This document shows positions 25,581 through 34,356 of a stretch of 38,578 bases of DNA, piece by piece; the first letter of the stretch is position 1, and the number at the start of each line of letters is the position of its first letter. The notes beneath the pieces are model-generated. The model made no database searches and was not told the origin of the DNA. It saw only the letters and a list, made by a program, of their open reading frames with translations. This DNA is from Flavobacteriia bacterium (GTDB lineage: Bacteria; Bacteroidota; Bacteroidia; Flavobacteriales; Flavobacteriaceae). The translations under genes and the position numbers were made by a program. The DNA is taken from NCBI GenBank assembly GCA_024635575.1, contig JAGXIN010000004.1:1-38578 (forward strand). Reading direction: 5' to 3'.

Positions 25581-26480
25581 ATGAGCGTACAATGGAAGGG
25601 CGTAATGCCAGCGGTTACAACAAAATTTACAGATGAGGACACTTTGGATTTGGTAAATTTTGAAATAAATATTAAAGCACAATTGGTGGCTGGTGTCAAT
25701 GGAATTATCCTTGGAGGCACTTTAGGCGAAGCGAGTACACTTACTGCTGATGAAAAAAAAATCCTGATCAAAAAAACAATCGAAATTGTAAAAGGTAAAG
25801 TTCCCGTAATTATTAATATTGCTGAGCAATCAACCTGCGCTGCTATTGAAGCGGTTCAAAAGGCCGAAGAATATGGAGCAAACGGATTAATGTTGTTGCC
25901 GCCAATGCGTTACAAAGCCGATGCCAGAGAAACGATAACTTATTTCAAAAAAATTGCCAAAAGCACCTTGCTGCCAATTATGATTTACAACAATCCGGTA
26001 GATTATGGTATTGAAGTGACCCTGGATATGTTCGAGGAATTGAAGGAATGTGAAAATATTCAGGCTGTAAAAGAATCTACGCGCGATATTTCAAACGTGA
26101 CCAGAATGAAAACGCGTTTTGGTAGCCGTTTTAAAATTTTATGTGGCGTTGACACCTTGGCATTAGAAAGTTTATTGATGGGTGCCGACGGATGGGTGGC
26201 TGGGTTGGTTTGCGCTTTCCCTGCGGAAACTGTTGCCATTTATAAATTGGTAAAAGCTGGAAAAACAAGAGAAGCCATTGCTATTTACAGTTGGTTTTTA
26301 CCTTTGTTAGAGTTGGATATAAATACTAAATTGGTACAAAATATTAAATTGGCGGAAGTTGCCACTGGGATTGGAACAGAAAATGTGCGAGAACCTCGTT
26401 TGCCTTTGGTGGGTGAAGAAAGAGCAAAAGTATTGGCAATTATTGAAAAAGCTTTAAAAAACAGACCAAACATCAATTAA
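25581..26480 (+). CDS. DapA/DHDPS family lyase, probable delta1-pyrroline-4-hydroxy-2-carboxylate deaminase
   Basis: This 299-residue class I aldolase-type TIM barrel has GGTLGEASTLTADEK (the GTTGE loop), the catalytic tyrosine in YNNPVDYGIEV and the Schiff-base Lys164 in IQAVKESTRDIS. The fold alone would also fit dihydrodipicolinate synthase or a keto-deoxy-sugar aldolase. Its position as first gene of a cluster with hydroxyproline epimerase, a D-amino-acid dehydrogenase and 2-oxoglutarate-semialdehyde dehydrogenase points to the deaminase step. That step converts pyrroline-4-hydroxy-2-carboxylate to 2-oxoglutarate semialdehyde and ammonia. Specificity is inferred from context. Confidence 0.85.
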   Translation: MSVQWKGVMPAVTTKFTDEDTLDLVNFEINIKAQLVAGVNGIILGGTLGEASTLTADEKKILIKKTIEIVKGKVPVIINIAEQSTCAAIEAVQKAEEYGANGLMLLPPMRYKADARETITYFKKIAKSTLLPIMIYNNPVDYGIEVTLDMFEELKECENIQAVKESTRDISNVTRMKTRFGSRFKILCGVDTLALESLLMGADGWVAGLVCAFPAETVAIYKLVKAGKTREAIAIYSWFLPLLELDINTKLVQNIKLAEVATGIGTENVREPRLPLVGEERAKVLAIIEKALKNRPNIN

Positions 26481-26483
26481 AAT

Positions 26484-26510
26484 GCCCCCTAACCCCCGAA
26501 GGGGGAATTA
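26484..26510 (-). repeat. Dispersed CCCCC/GGGGG hairpin repeat, copy 2
   Basis: On the minus strand this reads TAATTCCCCCTTCGGGGGTT then AGGGGGC, nearly the same as 7592-7618. It begins four bases after the stop of the DapA-family gene, inside the hydroxyproline cluster. The next 15 bases carry GAAAGTTAAAAGT (26513-26525), a member of the other repeat family, so the 127-base gap is largely repeat material. Confidence 0.7.
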
Positions 26511-26607
26511 ACGAAAGTTAAAAGTTTGTGCTAGGTTATTATAGCGTTGAAGTGAAAGTTCAAAAGGGAAAAAGACCAATAATACAATATACTAAAATAC
26601 ATAGAAA

Positions 26608-28191
26608 ATGATTACAGGAAAAAACTACATTGGAAATCTGCTGGCATCAACAGGGAAAGTGAAATTCAAAACATTCAATCCGAAGGAAAATAAGGAAAAC
26701 GATGTTGTTTTTTCTGAAGCTTCTGAAGCAGAAATTGAGATGGCAGTTGAATTGGCAACGGCAGCTTTTAAGGTGTTTCGAAGTATTTCAGGAATCAAAA
26801 AAAGTGAATTTTTAAACCAAATCGCCAATGAAATTGAAGCATTGGGCGATGAATTGATTAAAACCTATTGCTCAGAATCTGGTTTGCCGGAAGGCAGGGC
26901 AATTGGAGAAAGAGGAAGAACTGTTTTTCAGTTGCGCACTTTTGCCAATTTGGTAAAAGAAGGATCTTGGGTGGAAGCAACTATTGATACTGCTGATTTA
27001 AATAGAACACCCATTCCAAAAGTCGACATTCGTAAAATGTTAATTCCATTAGGTCCAATTGTGGTTTTTGGCGCAAGCAACTTTCCATTGGCCTATTCAA
27101 CAGCAGGCGGAGACACGGCAGCAGCATTTGCTGCAGGTTGTCCGGTTATTGTAAAGTCGCACCCAATGCATGCAGGAACTGGAGAATTGGTGGCATCTGC
27201 AATTATAAATGCTGCTGAAAAAACGGGTATGCCAAATGGCGTATTTTCAAATTTAAACAGCAGCGGTATTGAAGTTGGGGTTAAATTGGTGAAGCATCCG
27301 CAAGTAAAAGCGGTTGGTTTCACGGGAAGCGTTGGAGGAGGAAGAGCATTGTACAATTTGGCTTCACAGCGTCCGGAACCCATTCCTGTTTTTGCTGAAA
27401 TGGGAAGCGTAAATCCGGTAATTATTTTCCCAGATGCCACTAAAAATAAAGGGAGTGAATGGGCAAAGATTTATGCGGGTTCCATCACTTTAGGTTCTGG
27501 ACAATTTTGTACAAATCCCGGATTAATTTTAGGAATAAAAGGAGCCGATTTAAACAATTTTATTCAAAAATTATCTGAAGAAATTGTCAAAATTGAACCT
27601 ACTTGTATGTTGCATCCAAACATCATTGGTGCTTATGAAACTAAAAAGAAAATCATGCAAAAGCAAGAAGGTTTGGAAACTACTGCAAGTTTTTCTGATG
27701 AAATCACTGCTAATTTTGGCCGCCAAGCCATAACAACCGTTGAAGGCGCCACTTTTTTAAAAAACACAGCATTGCATCAGGAGGTTTTTGGACCATTCTC
27801 CATGGTGGTTCAGTGTGAAAATACGCAACAATTGGAAGAAATAATCACTCATTTAGAAGGACAGTTAACAGGAACAGTTTTGGCTGAAAATGAAGAATTG
27901 GAAAATTATGGTAAAGTTATAAACGCACTTGAAAATAGGGTGGGGCGTATTATTTTTAATGGGGTACCAACCGGTGTTGAGGTTTGTGCCGCAATGGTAC
28001 ATGGAGGTCCTTACCCAGCGTCAACCGACAGCAGGTTTACGGCCGTGGGAATCAATTCCATTAAACGTTGGGTGCGTCCGTTTAGTTTTCAAAGCTGGCC
28101 AAACGAAATGTTGCCAGACGAGCTTAAAAATGAAAATCCGTTAAAGATTTTCCGTGTTATTGATGGTGTTCAATCGGTAAAATCAATTTAA
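26608..28191 (+). CDS. 2-oxoglutarate semialdehyde (2,5-dioxovalerate) dehydrogenase
   Basis: This 527-residue aldehyde dehydrogenase oxidises 2-oxoglutarate semialdehyde to 2-oxoglutarate, the final step of hydroxyproline breakdown. The catalytic cysteine is Cys301 in SGQFCTNPGLIL and the general base is Glu264 in VFAEMGSVNPV. The nucleotide region reads VVFGASNFPLAYSTAGGDTA and GFTGSVGGGRAL. The length and the FCTNPG motif match the KGSADH subgroup rather than succinate-semialdehyde or betaine-aldehyde enzymes. It ends 13 bases before the epimerase gene, so they are co-transcribed. Confidence 0.9.
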   Translation: MITGKNYIGNLLASTGKVKFKTFNPKENKENDVVFSEASEAEIEMAVELATAAFKVFRSISGIKKSEFLNQIANEIEALGDELIKTYCSESGLPEGRAIGERGRTVFQLRTFANLVKEGSWVEATIDTADLNRTPIPKVDIRKMLIPLGPIVVFGASNFPLAYSTAGGDTAAAFAAGCPVIVKSHPMHAGTGELVASAIINAAEKTGMPNGVFSNLNSSGIEVGVKLVKHPQVKAVGFTGSVGGGRALYNLASQRPEPIPVFAEMGSVNPVIIFPDATKNKGSEWAKIYAGSITLGSGQFCTNPGLILGIKGADLNNFIQKLSEEIVKIEPTCMLHPNIIGAYETKKKIMQKQEGLETTASFSDEITANFGRQAITTVEGATFLKNTALHQEVFGPFSMVVQCENTQQLEEIITHLEGQLTGTVLAENEELENYGKVINALENRVGRIIFNGVPTGVEVCAAMVHGGPYPASTDSRFTAVGINSIKRWVRPFSFQSWPNEMLPDELKNENPLKIFRVIDGVQSVKSI

Positions 28192-28204
28192 TGACGTTTG
28201 AGAA

Positions 28205-29215
28205 ATGAGCAGAAAAACTTTTTTTTGCGTTGATGCCCACACCTGCGGAAATCCGGTGCGCCTAGTTGCTGGTGGTGGTCCTCATTTAAAGGGAGCCAAT
28301 ATGAGCGAAAAGCGTCAGCATTTTTTAGAGGAATTCGATTGGATTCGCAAAGGATTGATGTTTGAACCGCGAGGACATGATATGATGAGCGGGAGTATTT
28401 TATTTCCGCCGCATAATGAGGAAAATGATTTTTCGATTTTATTTATTGAAACTTCCGGTAGTTTGCCCATGTGCGGCCATGGAACTATAGGGACAGTAAC
28501 CATTGCCATTGAAGAAGGTTTGATAACGCCAAAAATTCCTGGAAAAATAAGGATGGAAGCACCAGCCGGACTTGTGCATATTGAATACCAAAAAACCGGC
28601 AAAAAAGTAGACTGGGTGAAATTAATCAATGTAAAATCTTATTTGGCTGAGGAAGGATTAACAGTGGATTGTCCGGAATTGGGAGCACTTACTTTTGATG
28701 TTGCTTATGGAGGAAATTATTACGCCATAGTGGACCCGCAAGAAAATTTTAGTGGCATTCATAATTTTACGGCTAACAAATTAATTCAATATTCACAAGT
28801 CGTCAGAACGCGGATCAATGAAAAATATCCCAATTTGTTTATTCATCCCGAAAATGAAACCATTAGAGATGTGCGTCATTTGATGTGGACCGGAAATCCT
28901 ATCCATCCAACTTCTTCAGGCAGAAACGCCGTTTTTTACGGCGACAAAGCAATCGATCGTTCACCTTGCGGCACAGGAACATCAGCGCGTATGGCTCAAT
29001 TGTATGCTAAAGGCAAACTAAAACTTGGTGAAGAATTTATTCACGAAAGTTTTATTGGCTCTAAATTTATTGGAAAAATAGTGGAAGAAACCACTTTGAA
29101 CGGTGAAAAAGCAATTGTTCCCAGCATTCAGGGCTGGGCAAAAATATATGGTTACAACACTATTATTATTGATGAGGAAGATGATCCTTATGCACTCGGA
29201 TTTCAAGTTTTATAA
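28205..29215 (+). CDS. 4-hydroxyproline 2-epimerase (proline racemase family)
   Basis: This 336-residue cofactor-independent enzyme epimerises trans-4-hydroxy-L-proline to cis-4-hydroxy-D-proline. Both catalytic cysteines of the two-base mechanism are present: Cys90 in LPMCGHGTIGT and Cys255 in DRSPCGTGTSARMAQ. A Cys/Thr pair would have indicated the dehydratase instead. The N-terminus CVDAHTCGNPVRLVAGGGP is characteristic. The operon context with the dehydrogenase, lyase and aldehyde dehydrogenase supports the hydroxyproline epimerase over proline racemase. The gene is followed after 26 bases by the FAD enzyme. Confidence 0.93.
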   Translation: MSRKTFFCVDAHTCGNPVRLVAGGGPHLKGANMSEKRQHFLEEFDWIRKGLMFEPRGHDMMSGSILFPPHNEENDFSILFIETSGSLPMCGHGTIGTVTIAIEEGLITPKIPGKIRMEAPAGLVHIEYQKTGKKVDWVKLINVKSYLAEEGLTVDCPELGALTFDVAYGGNYYAIVDPQENFSGIHNFTANKLIQYSQVVRTRINEKYPNLFIHPENETIRDVRHLMWTGNPIHPTSSGRNAVFYGDKAIDRSPCGTGTSARMAQLYAKGKLKLGEEFIHESFIGSKFIGKIVEETTLNGEKAIVPSIQGWAKIYGYNTIIIDEEDDPYALGFQVL

Positions 29216-29241
29216 ATATTTAAAGTTTAAACAATCATAAT

Positions 29242-30480
29242 TTGAAAAATGTTATCATCATCGGGGGTGGAATTATTGGATTATGTTCTGCATATTATTT
29301 GGCAAAAGAGGGGTCTAAAGTTACAGTTATTGACAAATCTGATTTGCTGGATGGCTGTTCTTATGGAAATGCGGGAATGATTGTTCCCAGCCATATTATA
29401 CCTATGGCACAGCCAGGCGTAATTCATCAGGGAATTAAATGGATGTTCAATGCCAAAAGTCCATTTTACATAAAACCAGCTTTAAGTTTGGATTTACTTT
29501 CTTGGTTGGTGCAATTTTACAAAAATTCCAATCAGAATCATGTCAACAAATCAATGGTTCCATTGCGGAATCTTTCTTTTTTCAGCAAAGAATTGTATCA
29601 GGAATTAGCGAAATCAACCAATGAATTCGGGTATCAGGAAAAAGGACTTTTAATGCTTTACAATACTGAAAAAGTTGGCGAAGAAGAGATAAAAACTGGA
29701 AAAATTGCTGAAGAATTGGGTATAGAAGTCGATTTTTTAGACCAACAGGAAGTTAAGAAGTTAGAGAAAAATATTAAAGTTAATGCGTTGGGGGCTGTGC
29801 ATTATAAATCGGATGCACATTTGTCTCCAAATCATTTTATGTCGTTTTTAAAATCCGAGTTAAATCTAATGGGGGTGAAAATGATTTCTAATTGTTCACT
29901 GTTGAATTTTAAGGTTTCCAATGAAAAAATTGAAGAATTAATCACCAATAAGGGTAATTTTAAGGCTGATGGATTTGTGCTTGCAACAAGTTCTTGGAGT
30001 GTGGAAATAGCCAAAAAGCTAGGAATTAAATTATATATTTTACCAGGGAAAGGCTATAGTTTTAATGTAGAAAACCTTTTGGTAAAACCAACAATTCCGT
30101 CTATTTTATGTGAGGGAAAAGTGGCTGTAACGCCTTTTAATAATGCTGTTCGGTTTGGCGGAACATTGGAAATCACCAACAATAATGACACTAAAATCAA
30201 TATAAAACGATTGCAGGGAATTGTAGAAAAAGTAAATCAATTTTATCCGGAGATAAAAGTTGACCTCCCAGAAAAGAAAAAAGTATGGCATGGTTTTAGG
30301 CCTTGCACACCAACCGGATTGCCAATTATTGAGAAATCTCAAAAAATTAAGAACTTGACCATTGCAGCAGGACATGCGATGATGGGCTTAAGTTTAGCTC
30401 CGGCTTCCGGAAAATTGGTCAGTGAACTGATAATGGATAAAAAACCATCTATAGACCTTTCAGAATTCAGGAGTACTTAA
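29242..30480 (+). CDS. FAD-dependent D-amino-acid dehydrogenase, probable D-hydroxyproline dehydrogenase
   Basis: This 412-residue DAO/DadA-family flavoprotein has the FAD motif IIIGGGIIGLCSAYYLAKEG at the N-terminus. Other family features are GCSYGNAGMIVPSHIIPMAQPG and the C-terminal WHGFRPCTPTGLPIIEKS with AAGHAMMGLSLAPASG. In the pathway it oxidises cis-4-hydroxy-D-proline to delta1-pyrroline-4-hydroxy-2-carboxylate, probably donating electrons to the respiratory chain. The start is a TTG at 29242, since the nucleotide-binding motif begins within four residues and no ATG precedes it. It follows the epimerase gene and precedes the MarR-type gene by 23 bases. Confidence 0.88.
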   Translation: MKNVIIIGGGIIGLCSAYYLAKEGSKVTVIDKSDLLDGCSYGNAGMIVPSHIIPMAQPGVIHQGIKWMFNAKSPFYIKPALSLDLLSWLVQFYKNSNQNHVNKSMVPLRNLSFFSKELYQELAKSTNEFGYQEKGLLMLYNTEKVGEEEIKTGKIAEELGIEVDFLDQQEVKKLEKNIKVNALGAVHYKSDAHLSPNHFMSFLKSELNLMGVKMISNCSLLNFKVSNEKIEELITNKGNFKADGFVLATSSWSVEIAKKLGIKLYILPGKGYSFNVENLLVKPTIPSILCEGKVAVTPFNNAVRFGGTLEITNNNDTKINIKRLQGIVEKVNQFYPEIKVDLPEKKKVWHGFRPCTPTGLPIIEKSQKIKNLTIAAGHAMMGLSLAPASGKLVSELIMDKKPSIDLSEFRST

Positions 30481-30503: not shown

Positions 30504-30974
30504 ATGACTTTTATAGAAATTTTAATAAAGCTCAGAAGAATAGTGCGATCCGTAAATTTGGAAAGCAAGCGGGTGGATAAAGAATTGGGCGTGAGTATTC
30601 CTCAATTATTATGCCTTCAATTTTTGGCAGAGCAAGATGAATTTAAGGCAAATGCTTCAAAACTAAAAGGTTTTTTAAATTTAAATGCCAGCACAATTAC
30701 AGGGATTATATCAAGGCTGGAGAAAAAAAAACTTGTTATGAAACTTCCTAAATCCATTGACAAACGAGTTACTTTAATTTCTTTAACAACTAAAGGGAAG
30801 GAACTTATTCAAAATGCTCCAATTACTTTTCAACAAAAATTAAGTGAAAAGTTGCAAGCACTTCCGTCAGAAAAACTTAAAATCATCATTGAAGGAATTG
30901 ATTTGTTGACAGAACTTATGGAAGTTGATGAAATTGATGCCTTACCAATTATTACTTCGGAAGAATTTCTTTAG
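30504..30974 (+). CDS. MarR family transcriptional regulator
   Basis: This 156-residue winged-helix regulator has the core NLNASTITGIISRLEKKKLVMKLPKSIDKRVTLISLTTKGKEL (seen in segments), which is the MarR recognition helix and wing. MarR dimers bind palindromes of about 16-20 bp. Two related palindromes lie in the 245-bp spacer directly downstream, before rpsU, and are the best target candidates. The gene is the last of the hydroxyproline run and may also regulate that run. The ligand is unknown. Confidence 0.88.
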   Translation: MTFIEILIKLRRIVRSVNLESKRVDKELGVSIPQLLCLQFLAEQDEFKANASKLKGFLNLNASTITGIISRLEKKKLVMKLPKSIDKRVTLISLTTKGKELIQNAPITFQQKLSEKLQALPSEKLKIIIEGIDLLTELMEVDEIDALPIITSEEFL

Positions 30975-31047
30975 GACTTATATATAGATACAATCGTTTT
31001 TTTTAAATATTATTTCATTTTCATTTTTTGGATTTAATCTTAAAAAG

Positions 31048-31059
31048 TTTCTGCAGAAA
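31048..31059. promoter_or_regulatory. Palindrome 1 upstream of rpsU (TTTCTGCAGAAA)
   Basis: This perfect 12-bp palindrome, in the context GTTTCTGCAGAAAAC, shares GTTTCTRCAGAAA with the stronger site centred 114 bp downstream, roughly eleven helical turns away. It is a candidate operator for the adjacent MarR protein. Confidence 0.45.
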
Positions 31060-31156
31060 ACATAAAAATAAGTGTATTTTTATCAAAATATTTACCAATA
31101 AATCAACGTTATAGGATTTTGATTACTTGTTTGTTAAATTATTATAATTGATTTTC

Positions 31157-31178
31157 AATAGTTTCTACAGAAACTATT
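31157..31178. promoter_or_regulatory. Palindrome 2 upstream of rpsU (AATAGTTTCT-AC-AGAAACTATT)
   Basis: Ten-base arms are perfect around a two-base centre. It ends three bases before the -7 element at 31182-31189 and covers the position where a -33 box should be, so a bound protein would directly block or replace -33 recognition. Confidence 0.6.
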
Positions 31179-31219: not shown

Positions 31220-31414
31220 ATGCTCATTATACAAGTAAAGGAAGGCGAAAACATTGATAGAGCGCTAAAAAGATACAAACAAAAAACCAGAAGAACAAAA
31301 CTGATTAATAATTTAAGAGACCAGAAACAATTTACTAAAAAATCAGTAAAGAAAAGAATGAAATTGGCAAAGGCGGTTTACATACAGGATTTAAGAAATC
31401 AAGAAGAAAAATAA
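31220..31414 (+). CDS. rpsU: 30S ribosomal protein S21 (bS21)
   Basis: This 64-residue very basic protein has the S21 pattern IIQVKEGENIDRALKRYKQK, then RRTKLINNLRDQKQF and a Lys/Arg-rich helix. bS21 sits near the anti-Shine-Dalgarno end of 16S rRNA on the small subunit. The length is normal for Bacteroidetes. It has its own -7 element with an overlapping palindrome. The next gene starts two bases after its stop, so it appears to be the first gene of an operon that continues with an acetyltransferase and a transporter. Confidence 0.95.
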   Translation: MLIIQVKEGENIDRALKRYKQKTRRTKLINNLRDQKQFTKKSVKKRMKLAKAVYIQDLRNQEEK

Positions 31415-31416
31415 AT

Positions 31417-31866
31417 ATGGAGACTTTTAAAATTTACAACAATATCACAACACCTTCAGCTGAAGAAAAGGAGGAAGCTATTTCGTTTTTATTTAAGCAC
31501 CTGCAGGAATATGGTGATAAAAAGGAAGATATTGGCAAATGTTTCGATTTTGCGGTAAGGGATTCCAAGGAAGAACTTGGCGGATTTGTATTGATGCTTT
31601 TGGAAAATAACGAAATTAAAGGCGTTACCATCGTTAACAAAACCGGAATGGCCGGATATATTCCTGAAAATATCCTTGTTTATATTGCCGTTCACGAAAA
31701 TGCCCGTGGTAAAGGTTATGGTAAAAAACTAATGAATAAAGCTATTGAATTGGCTGATGGTAATATTGCATTGCACGTAGAACCAAACAATCCGGCAAAA
31801 TTTTTATATGAAAAATTAGGCTTTGAAAATAAATATTTAGAAATGAGACTTAAAAAACAACAATAA
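31417..31866 (+). CDS. GNAT family N-acetyltransferase
   Basis: This 149-residue acetyl-CoA-dependent transferase has the GNAT acetyl-CoA loop in VHENARGKGYGKKLMNKAIEL, preceded by the strand ILVYIAV and followed by HVEPNNPAKFLYEKLGFENKYLEMRL. The acceptor is unknown; small amines, amino acids or protein N-termini (including ribosomal proteins, given rpsU two bases upstream) are possible. Gaps of two bases to rpsU and seven to the symporter gene indicate tight co-transcription. Confidence 0.85.
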   Translation: METFKIYNNITTPSAEEKEEAISFLFKHLQEYGDKKEDIGKCFDFAVRDSKEELGGFVLMLLENNEIKGVTIVNKTGMAGYIPENILVYIAVHENARGKGYGKKLMNKAIELADGNIALHVEPNNPAKFLYEKLGFENKYLEMRLKKQQ

Positions 31867-31873
31867 ACTCTCT

Positions 31874-33277
31874 ATGGCTTTTTTAGACATTGTTGTTTTT
31901 GTTGTTTATATGGCCGCCGTTTTGGGGATTGGGTTTTATTTTTTTAAAAAAAATGAAACTGTTAAGGATTACTACGTCGGTGGAGGTGAAATGAGCAGTT
32001 TGCACGTGGGCTTATCCGTTGTTGCGACAGATGTAGGAGGAGGATTTTCAATTGGATTGGGCGGATTGGGTTTTGTGATGGGAATATCCGGTTCCTGGAT
32101 GTTATTTACCGGACTTATAGGCGCTTGGTTAAGCGCCGTTTTTTTGATTCCAAAGGTTGTTAAACTTGGTAATCTTCATGGTTTTTTAACATTTCCCGAA
32201 TTTTTGAAGCACAGTTACGGAACTACAGTAGCTATGGTTGCTGGTATTATTTCCTTTATTGGCTATTTGGGTTTTACTTCATCACAATTTCTTGCTGGCG
32301 CAAAGTTGGCAGTTGGCACATTTCCTTCTCTTGATTTGAATCAAGCTTTATTGATAATGGGAGGTGTGGCATTGGTTTATACTGTTTTTGGAGGGATGAA
32401 AGCTGTCATTTATACAGATACTTTTCAATGGATTATTTTAATGGTTGGGTTAATATTTGTAGGAATCCCTATTGCTTATAACTACTTAGGAGGTTATGAA
32501 GCGATTGTAAGTGTACTTCCTGATAAATATTTTTCATTGCAAAACGTTTCCTGGGTTCAACTTATAAATTGGTTTGTAATTATTGTTCCTATTTGGTTCG
32601 TTGGAATGACACTTTATCAAAGAATATACGCTTGCAAAGATGAAAAAACAGCAAAGAAGGCTTGGTTTATAGCAGGGCTTTTTGAATATCCTACAATGGC
32701 TTTTATGGGTGTAATTCTTGGTTTATTTTCAAGAGTCGCAGCTGCAAAAGGTATTTTTATTTCAGATGGATTTGAAAGTGAAATAGGGATGGATCCTGAG
32801 ATGGGAATGCCGTTGCTTTTAAAACATGTATTGCCTGTAGGTCTTATGGGATTAATGTTGTCAGCTTATTTTTCTGCAATAATGTCAACAGCAGACAGTT
32901 GTTTGTTGGCAGCATCAGGTAATTTTGTAACTGATATTTTAGGACTTAAGCATCCTAACAAAAGCAATATAAAAATTTCTCAGATTGTGACATTTGCGGT
33001 TGGTGGAGCTTCAATAATTATTGCCACTACTATGCAAAGTGTATTGTCGCTCATGCTATTGTCCTACTCATTTATGGTTTCAGGACTTTTGGTGCCAGTT
33101 TTAGGAATATTATTATCAAAAAAAAGAAAACCTGTAGCAGCTTTGTTCTCAATGATCATAGGAGGGTCTACAACACTGATTTTAACATTTCTTGAAGTGA
33201 AAATACCTTTTGGTTTTGACCCAATATTAATAGGAATTTCATTATCTTCCATTGTCTATTTAACAATTAAGAAATAA
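31874..33277 (+). CDS. Sodium:solute symporter (SSS family), candidate proline/hydroxyproline transporter
   Basis: This 467-residue inner-membrane protein has about 13 hydrophobic segments. SSS features are FKKNETVKDYYVGGGEMSS, VATDVGGGFSIGLGGLGF, FGGMKAVIYTDTFQWIIL and the Na+-site region AYFSAIMSTADSCLLAASGN. Relatives import proline, pantothenate, sugars or other solutes with Na+. The hydroxyproline pathway upstream and Xaa-Pro aminopeptidase downstream suggest an imino acid or related amino acid as substrate, which is inference. It lies seven bases after the GNAT gene and five before the racemase gene. Confidence 0.88.
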   Translation: MAFLDIVVFVVYMAAVLGIGFYFFKKNETVKDYYVGGGEMSSLHVGLSVVATDVGGGFSIGLGGLGFVMGISGSWMLFTGLIGAWLSAVFLIPKVVKLGNLHGFLTFPEFLKHSYGTTVAMVAGIISFIGYLGFTSSQFLAGAKLAVGTFPSLDLNQALLIMGGVALVYTVFGGMKAVIYTDTFQWIILMVGLIFVGIPIAYNYLGGYEAIVSVLPDKYFSLQNVSWVQLINWFVIIVPIWFVGMTLYQRIYACKDEKTAKKAWFIAGLFEYPTMAFMGVILGLFSRVAAAKGIFISDGFESEIGMDPEMGMPLLLKHVLPVGLMGLMLSAYFSAIMSTADSCLLAASGNFVTDILGLKHPNKSNIKISQIVTFAVGGASIIIATTMQSVLSLMLLSYSFMVSGLLVPVLGILLSKKRKPVAALFSMIIGGSTTLILTFLEVKIPFGFDPILIGISLSSIVYLTIKK

Positions 33278-33282
33278 CCGAT

Positions 33283-34356
33283 ATGGCATATATAACACTC
33301 AATAAAAAATCATTAACTCATAATTATTCATTTTTACAGTCGTTGTTTGCAAGCCATCAAAAGGAATGGGCTCCTGTATTGAAGTTGCTTTGCGGGAATA
33401 AAACCTTCTTGGAATATGTATTGTCATTAGGCGATGAACAGGTATGCGACGCTCGATTGAGCAATATAAAAAGAATTAAAGCCATAAATCCTGATAAAGA
33501 AACCATCTACATAAAACCTCCTGCGAAGCGAAGCATACCCAATGTAGTTAAATATGCTGATGTAAGTTTTAATACAGAATTAACGACCATGAAATGGTTA
33601 TCCATAGAAGCCGTTAAACAGCAAAAAATCCACCGAATTATTATTATGATTGAATTGGGTGATTTGCGCGAAGGTATTATGGGTGAGTATTTAATGGAAT
33701 TTTACAAAAAAATATTTGAGTTGCCCAATATTCAAGTGGCGGGCATTGGAGCAAATCTAAATTGTTTAAGCGGTGTGATGCCAAGCAAAGACAAGCTAAT
33801 TCAATTGAGTTTGTATGAACAATTGATTGAAGCAAAATTCGGAAAGAAAATTGATTATGTGTCAGGCGGATCTTCCGTGATGATTCCTCTTTTATTAAAA
33901 AAGCAAATTCCTAAGGGAATTAATCATTTCAGAATTGGGGAAACCCTGTTTTTTGGCGTTGATTTATTTACAAATAAAACAATCCCTAAAATGAAGGATG
34001 ATGTTTTTATGCTTTACACCGAAATCATTGAGATTACTGAAAAACCCATTATTCCTTATGGTTATTTAGAAGAAAATCCTTCGGGAGAAACCTTGGAAAT
34101 TGACCCTGAGGATTACGGAAAAAACCACAGCAGGGGAATTTTAGACATAGGGCTTTTGGACATTTCTAATACTGAATTTTTGATTCCAGTTGACAAAGAG
34201 ATTACCTTTATTGGCGCAAGCTCCGATATGTTGGTGGTGGATTTGAGCAAAACAGCAAAAAAATATAAAGTCGGTGACTTGGTTAGGTTTAAAATGAAAT
34301 ATATGGGTGCCTTGCGCGTTATGAACTCTGAATATATTGAAAAGAAACTGGTTTAA
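33283..34356 (+). CDS. Alanine/ornithine racemase family PLP-dependent enzyme
   Basis: This 357-residue protein has the alanine-racemase-type PLP barrel. The likely Schiff-base lysine is Lys34 in WAPVLKLLCGN. IIIMIELGDLREGIMGEYL, IGANLNCLSGVMPSKDKL, DYVSGGSSVMIPLL and INHFRIGETLFFG closely resemble the clostridial ornithine racemase (Orr) group rather than the cell-wall alanine racemase Alr. It should interconvert L- and D-forms of a free amino acid. The substrate is unknown; the symporter gene five bases upstream may import it. Coupling to the symporter suggests a catabolic role. Confidence 0.8.
   Translation: MAYITLNKKSLTHNYSFLQSLFASHQKEWAPVLKLLCGNKTFLEYVLSLGDEQVCDARLSNIKRIKAINPDKETIYIKPPAKRSIPNVVKYADVSFNTELTTMKWLSIEAVKQQKIHRIIIMIELGDLREGIMGEYLMEFYKKIFELPNIQVAGIGANLNCLSGVMPSKDKLIQLSLYEQLIEAKFGKKIDYVSGGSSVMIPLLLKKQIPKGINHFRIGETLFFGVDLFTNKTIPKMKDDVFMLYTEIIEITEKPIIPYGYLEENPSGETLEIDPEDYGKNHSRGILDIGLLDISNTEFLIPVDKEITFIGASSDMLVVDLSKTAKKYKVGDLVRFKMKYMGALRVMNSEYIEKKLV

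Follow-up and report, generated by a model that had tools for sequence, protein, structure and literature searches.

The window, i.e., the whole stretch of DNA that was analyzed (38,578 nucleotides), corresponds to contig 11 in a MAG of 1.7 Mb that is 62% complete and whose closest named relatives belong to Lutibacter. A gene encoding a MarR-family regulator is followed, after 245 bp, by a bS21 gene, and then by the genes of a GNAT acetyltransferase (2 bp further), a sodium:solute symporter (SSS; 7 bp), an Orr-like racemase (5 bp), and a Xaa-Pro aminopeptidase (133 bp). The name ORR-B is used here for a group of 63 Bacteroidota proteins that includes the racemase of the window. The relevant features are the following:

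30504 to 30974, + strand: MarR-family regulator, putative repressor of the gene string
31047 to 31061, no strand: second, imperfect copy of the palindrome, GTTTCTGCAGAAAAC, after the MarR gene
31159 to 31176, no strand: perfect palindrome TAGTTTCTACAGAAACTA in front of the bS21 gene, proposed MarR operator
31220 to 31414, + strand: bS21 paralog, first gene of the string, with no Shine-Dalgarno sequence
31417 to 31866, + strand: GNAT N-acetyltransferase, invariant partner of ORR-B as judged by co-occurrence (61 of 61 genomes), with its assignment backed by fold
31874 to 33277, + strand: sodium:solute symporter of the SSS family, common but dispensable
33283 to 34356, + strand: Orr-like fold-type III PLP racemase (ORR-B) with K34, Met316 and Leu292, assigned by profile, alignment and model

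The racemase ORF has an ATG start and 357 codons (357 aa), and it begins just past the end of the symporter ORF, exactly as the preliminary description of this DNA had claimed. That description had missed the GNAT and bS21 genes, which lie in the same gene string. Intact relatives of the racemase, with identities of about 40–92%, were found across Bacteroidota, and as a coding sequence the ORF is far beyond chance. The SSS symporter scored below every NCBIfam equivalog cut-off.

The sole Pfam match of the racemase is Ala_racemase_N (48.8 bits, cut-off 24.1), with no Pfam match to the Ala_racemase_C domain in this protein. The best NCBIfam model is racem_Orr (NF040742), which gives 308 bits against a cut-off of 480, while the alr model (TIGR00492) gives only 19.7 bits against a cut-off of 168, and thus the enzyme can be called Orr-like and not Alr, in agreement with what had been described. 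Modeling with AlphaFold2 (mean pLDDT 84) gave an Alr-type fold whose nearest matches are VanT, Alr, and the lysine racemase Lyr. The Ala_racemase_N match above cut-off, the PLP lysine, and this fold place the protein in the fold-type III PLP racemase superfamily, and it is probably a PLP-dependent amino acid racemase that interconverts L and D forms. A sequence search found no solved structure related to ORR-B. Alr, the VanT serine racemase, and Lyr, which share fold type III and are the nearest solved folds, have only 12–18% identity with it; ORR-B differs from them in lacking an Ala_racemase_C match, and the position of the catalytic Tyr of Alr appears as Leu291 in the motif alignment.

The string lies next to a hydroxyproline catabolic operon (25581–30480) that encodes a DapA-like lyase, an aldehyde dehydrogenase, a 4-hydroxyproline epimerase (582 bits), and an FAD oxidase; it is accompanied by a divergent regulator which, by eye, resembles the AraC type. 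The idea that the racemase is a housekeeping alanine racemase, or contributes some accessory step to the hydroxyproline pathway, draws on the superfamily that it shares with Alr and on its closeness to the hydroxyproline operon in several Lutibacter, but we consider it highly improbable. A housekeeping Alr was rejected on the domain content together with the very low alr score and on the presence of an ordinary alr elsewhere in the same genome (contig 67), so that the earlier view of a non-housekeeping enzyme is supported. ORR-B is near hydroxyproline genes only in part of Lutibacter, and variably there, and no such genes were seen near it in the loci inspected outside this genus. The earlier statement that the racemase corresponds to no known step of hydroxyproline catabolism agrees with the lack of a conserved linkage with the epimerase, oxidase, and dehydrogenase genes; the suggestion that it could extend the hydroxyproline locus is not supported, given this variable proximity and its restriction to Lutibacter. 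The external aldimine of a PLP racemase can be formed only with a primary amine, and secondary amines form no ordinary PLP aldimine. For this reason of general chemistry, imino acids and proline-type compounds are unlikely substrates of ORR-B.

A maximum-likelihood tree built from 74 proteins, which was midpoint-rooted and contains long branches, places the 63 Bacteroidota sequences in one group (100/100 support) that is set off by a long branch from 11 other members of the family. These 11 comparators are Orr-family members, only some of them being proven or probable ornithine racemases. Residues K34 (the PLP lysine), C161, R217, D315, and Y340 are invariant in the 86 aligned family sequences. 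The His of the SSDH motif, present in all 11 comparators, is replaced by Met316 in 73 of 75 ORR-B sequences; the Gln of the GxQD motif (Gln292), present in 8 of the 11, is replaced by Leu292 also in 73 of 75; and, in the alignment of 86, the family Arg78 becomes Lys in ORR-B. The nearest characterized family is Orr, to which ORR-B is linked by its profile family, the PLP lysine, and its length, the window protein sharing 37% identity with Orr from Acetoanaerobium noterae. Nevertheless, ORR-B orthologs reach just 280–315 bits with NF040742, whereas two true Orr proteins reach 549.6 and 497.9 bits. To judge from the tree and the residues, ORR-B is a subfamily distinct from Orr. The resemblance to ornithine racemase that had been described therefore stands at the level of the family and not for Orr proper, and the predicted structure, which had been suggested as a further comparison, was obtained and led to VanT, Alr, and Lyr. 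These data argue that the label "ornithine racemase" is not safe for this group.

The two true Orr genes provide a comparison of gene context. In A. noterae (L147), Orr (549.6 bits) is located after Ord, OrtA, OrtB, OraS, OraE, and a gene for a 465-aa protein, and a Bacteroidota genome, G213, carries a complete ornithine-fermentation operon (L118:3114–11012) with an Orr of 497.9 bits; in both loci, OrtA, OrtB, and OraS were named from gene order and size, and Ord, OraE, and Orr from NCBIfam. In ORR-B loci the partner is a GNAT in place of Ord-OrtAB-OraSE. No Ord, OrtAB, or OraSE genes were found in the window, and no OraE-sized PF09043 match, as expected for a D-ornithine aminomutase, was found in the 37 genomes of the genus set searched, in which the genome of the window itself is 62% complete. 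It is thus distinctly unlikely that ORR-B is a plain ornithine racemase feeding an ornithine fermentation like that of Acetoanaerobium and Clostridium. Although racem_Orr is its best family model and ArgBDCJ genes are its neighbors in two species, its score is far below the cut-off, it has its own group in the tree, the conserved His and Gln are replaced, and the phylum does have a genuine Orr operon in G213. A canonical Orr was discarded on the score, the tree, the residues, and the missing aminomutase.

Since the family His is a Met in ORR-B and no second catalytic base was found, the enzyme may have an altered racemase activity or none. The protein might then catalyze another fold-type III PLP reaction (lyase, dehydratase, or aldolase) or be a non-catalytic PLP protein, its racemase name being inherited. 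The second-site residues, unlike those of the rest of the family, are compatible with this idea, as is the presence of D-threonine aldolase, beta-hydroxyaspartate aldolase, and D-threo-3-hydroxyaspartate dehydratase among the fold matches of the model. However, racemases are the best fold matches, and R217, whose equivalence was deduced from the motif and not from a superposition, is kept where decarboxylases of the same fold have Glu, as in the contrast between the Arg of Alr and the Glu of ODC (PMC8142540). We regard this explanation as unlikely.

The distribution of the neighboring genes was analyzed in a sample of 396 genomes across Bacteroidota. ORR-B is present in 61 of them, about 1 in 6, and all 61 encode a close relative of the GNAT of the window. 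A single genome (G134) has the GNAT without ORR-B, and the GNAT is absent from two genomes that carry other Orr-family members. Within the 61 genomes, the GNAT gene is upstream of ORR-B on the same strand in 59 and at 300 bp or less in 52, while 2 genomes have the two genes on different contigs. The Fisher value for this co-occurrence is about 1e-71 when relatedness is ignored, and the pair spans many families. The invariant partner of ORR-B is therefore the GNAT rather than the symporter, and the data argue for a function shared by racemase and GNAT. Because the racemase is always found with one particular GNAT in the Bacteroidota sampled, it appears to belong to a conserved unstudied pathway and not to the hydroxyproline pathway. 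In the literature searched we found no paper on the ORR-B subfamily or on its pair with the GNAT, an absence that is not proof of novelty. What is new here is the invariant acetyltransferase partner and the separate subfamily; the kind of enzyme, a fold-type III PLP racemase, was already known.

Regarding the specificity of the GNAT, sequence and fold searches gave generic matches only. Weak family matches include RimI, a protein acetyltransferase, and the fold matches include yeast Hpa2 (1qsm). Hpa3 acetylates D-amino acids, and the GNAT fold is common to the Hpa2/Hpa3-type enzymes and to the partner of ORR-B, but the match of the latter is generic to all GNATs. Our preferred reading, to which we assign a probability of roughly 0.4, is that ORR-B and the GNAT constitute a racemase-acetyltransferase unit that would act in sequence on one small molecule.

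The preliminary description had taken the symporter as the key to the substrate. This view is not supported: a symporter is found within 6 kb of ORR-B in 49 of 79 loci, and four Lutibacter loci (L029, L035, L037, and L048) have none between the GNAT and the racemase, compared with the constant presence of the GNAT. Several layouts recur: GNAT-ORR alone; SSS-GNAT-M20-Alr2-ORR in Flavobacteriales; SSS-GNAT-ORR-M23-M20-Alr2, in the order of G165; and UspA-GNAT-ORR-AraC in family f5, where UspA and AraC were labeled by eye. The genes encoding an M20 amidohydrolase and a second Alr (Alr2) occur together in 38 of the 79 loci and apart in 2. Alr2 is absent from the complete genomes G036 and G018, which carry ORR-B, and thus neighbors of the M20/Alr2 type are accessories. 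The SSS-GNAT-ORR-M20-Alr2 module also includes an M23-family peptidase, about 200 aa long and showing no signal peptide that was obvious by eye (L108:10556–11152, L128:10784–11386, and 15 more loci).

These accessory genes could also be read as a system for salvage or detoxification of D-amino acids. The symporter would import free D-amino acids, e.g., from peptidoglycan debris, ORR-B and Alr2 would convert them into L forms that serve as nitrogen and carbon sources, M20 and M23 would trim D-containing peptides, and the GNAT would cap the excess of D-amino acid. The recurrence of M23, M20, and Alr2 beside the pair, the frequent joint presence of M20 and Alr2, and the symporter found in more than half of the loci speak for such a role. 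On the other hand, it is the GNAT that is invariant, while the transporter, M20, M23, and Alr2 are dispensable, and the set of ornithine biosynthesis genes described below fits production better. For these reasons, salvage seems to us rather unlikely, albeit the most serious competitor of the racemase-acetyltransferase unit.

In Lutibacter flavus and L. maritimus, the operon has the order SSS-M20-Alr2-ArgB-ArgD-ArgC-ArgJ-ORR. Both species have an additional argC of the type common to other congeners, and thus ArgB-D-C-J is a second set. This second ornithine-biosynthesis set was observed in some Lutibacter either inside the racemase operon or alone (L038:3618–7963; L157:8912–13237). Among 22 congeners (G001–G022), ArgJ is found in 6 of the 11 with ORR-B and in none of the 11 without it. 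Against ornithine, the ArgBDCJ genes of G002 stand alone, the palindrome was looked for in front of them and not found, and the genus genomes searched yielded no D-ornithine aminomutase. Given the location of the second ArgB-D-C-J set inside the operon of two Lutibacter, ornithine (or a close basic homologue) is the best guess for the substrate, and it is possible, if doubtful, that the substrate is ornithine itself. A lysine route via KamDE was considered and rejected, since KamD-sized proteins, found in five genomes, do not track ORR-B, and two of these genomes (G001 and G016) lack it.

According to the racemase-acetyltransferase reading, the symporter or biosynthesis would supply a primary-amine alpha-amino acid, ORR-B would interconvert the two enantiomers (L and D), and the GNAT would acetylate an amino group of one of them, pulling the racemization one way. 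In many relatives, the M20 amidohydrolase, the second Alr, and the M23 peptidase might process or recycle related compounds, and in Lutibacter a MarR-type repressor acting on the palindrome in front of the bS21 paralog would switch the unit. Should the pair turn out to produce or clear a D-amino acid derivative, an unrecognized branch of D-amino acid metabolism would be revealed.

The palindrome at 31159–31176 is kept with small changes in Lutibacter loci. Ten Lutibacter genomes contain few further exact matches to GTTTCYRYAGAAAC; the sequence is nearly unique genome-wide, and we infer that the neighboring MarR binds it. A wider MarR regulon was discarded, as the other palindrome matches inspected fall inside or beside unrelated genes. 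The MarR gene starts 23 bp after that of the FAD oxidase, which closes the series of enzyme genes in the hydroxyproline operon. With the MarR gene placed after this operon and the palindromes before the bS21 string, a regulatory link between both is possible.

Two bS21 copies were found in each of three genomes with ORR-B and one in each of two genomes without it; in the incomplete genome of the window, only the operon copy was seen. By these counts the operon bS21 gene is a paralog. An extended Shine-Dalgarno sequence, AAAGGAGGTGC, precedes the five housekeeping rpsU genes inspected and is absent from the operon paralog; in Flavobacterium johnsoniae, bS21 autoregulation has been tied to this sequence (PMC9976891). 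Duplicate bS21 genes have been reviewed in Francisella and others (PMC9976891), and the present case resembles them in having two genes per genome, but differs in that the ORR-B-associated paralog is part of a metabolic operon, has a conserved palindrome in front of it, and lacks the Shine-Dalgarno sequence that the housekeeping copy carries. As a long shot, one can imagine a Bacteroidota pathway in which ORR-B and its obligate GNAT would make an N-acetylated D-amino acid, e.g., N-acetyl-D-ornithine, and which in some lineages would be wired, via the MarR switch together with a bS21 paralog that has no Shine-Dalgarno sequence and would escape autoregulation, to a change in ribosome composition. 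An operon-heading paralog devoid of the autoregulation-linked sequence makes specialized bS21 paralogs in Bacteroidota directly testable. These observations on the bS21 Shine-Dalgarno sequence and module correspond to the loci 31220–31414, L181–L185, and L211:11421–11618, the last one being from the distant genome G729, where the bS21 gene is also found in the module with the order GNAT-S21-SSS-ORR.
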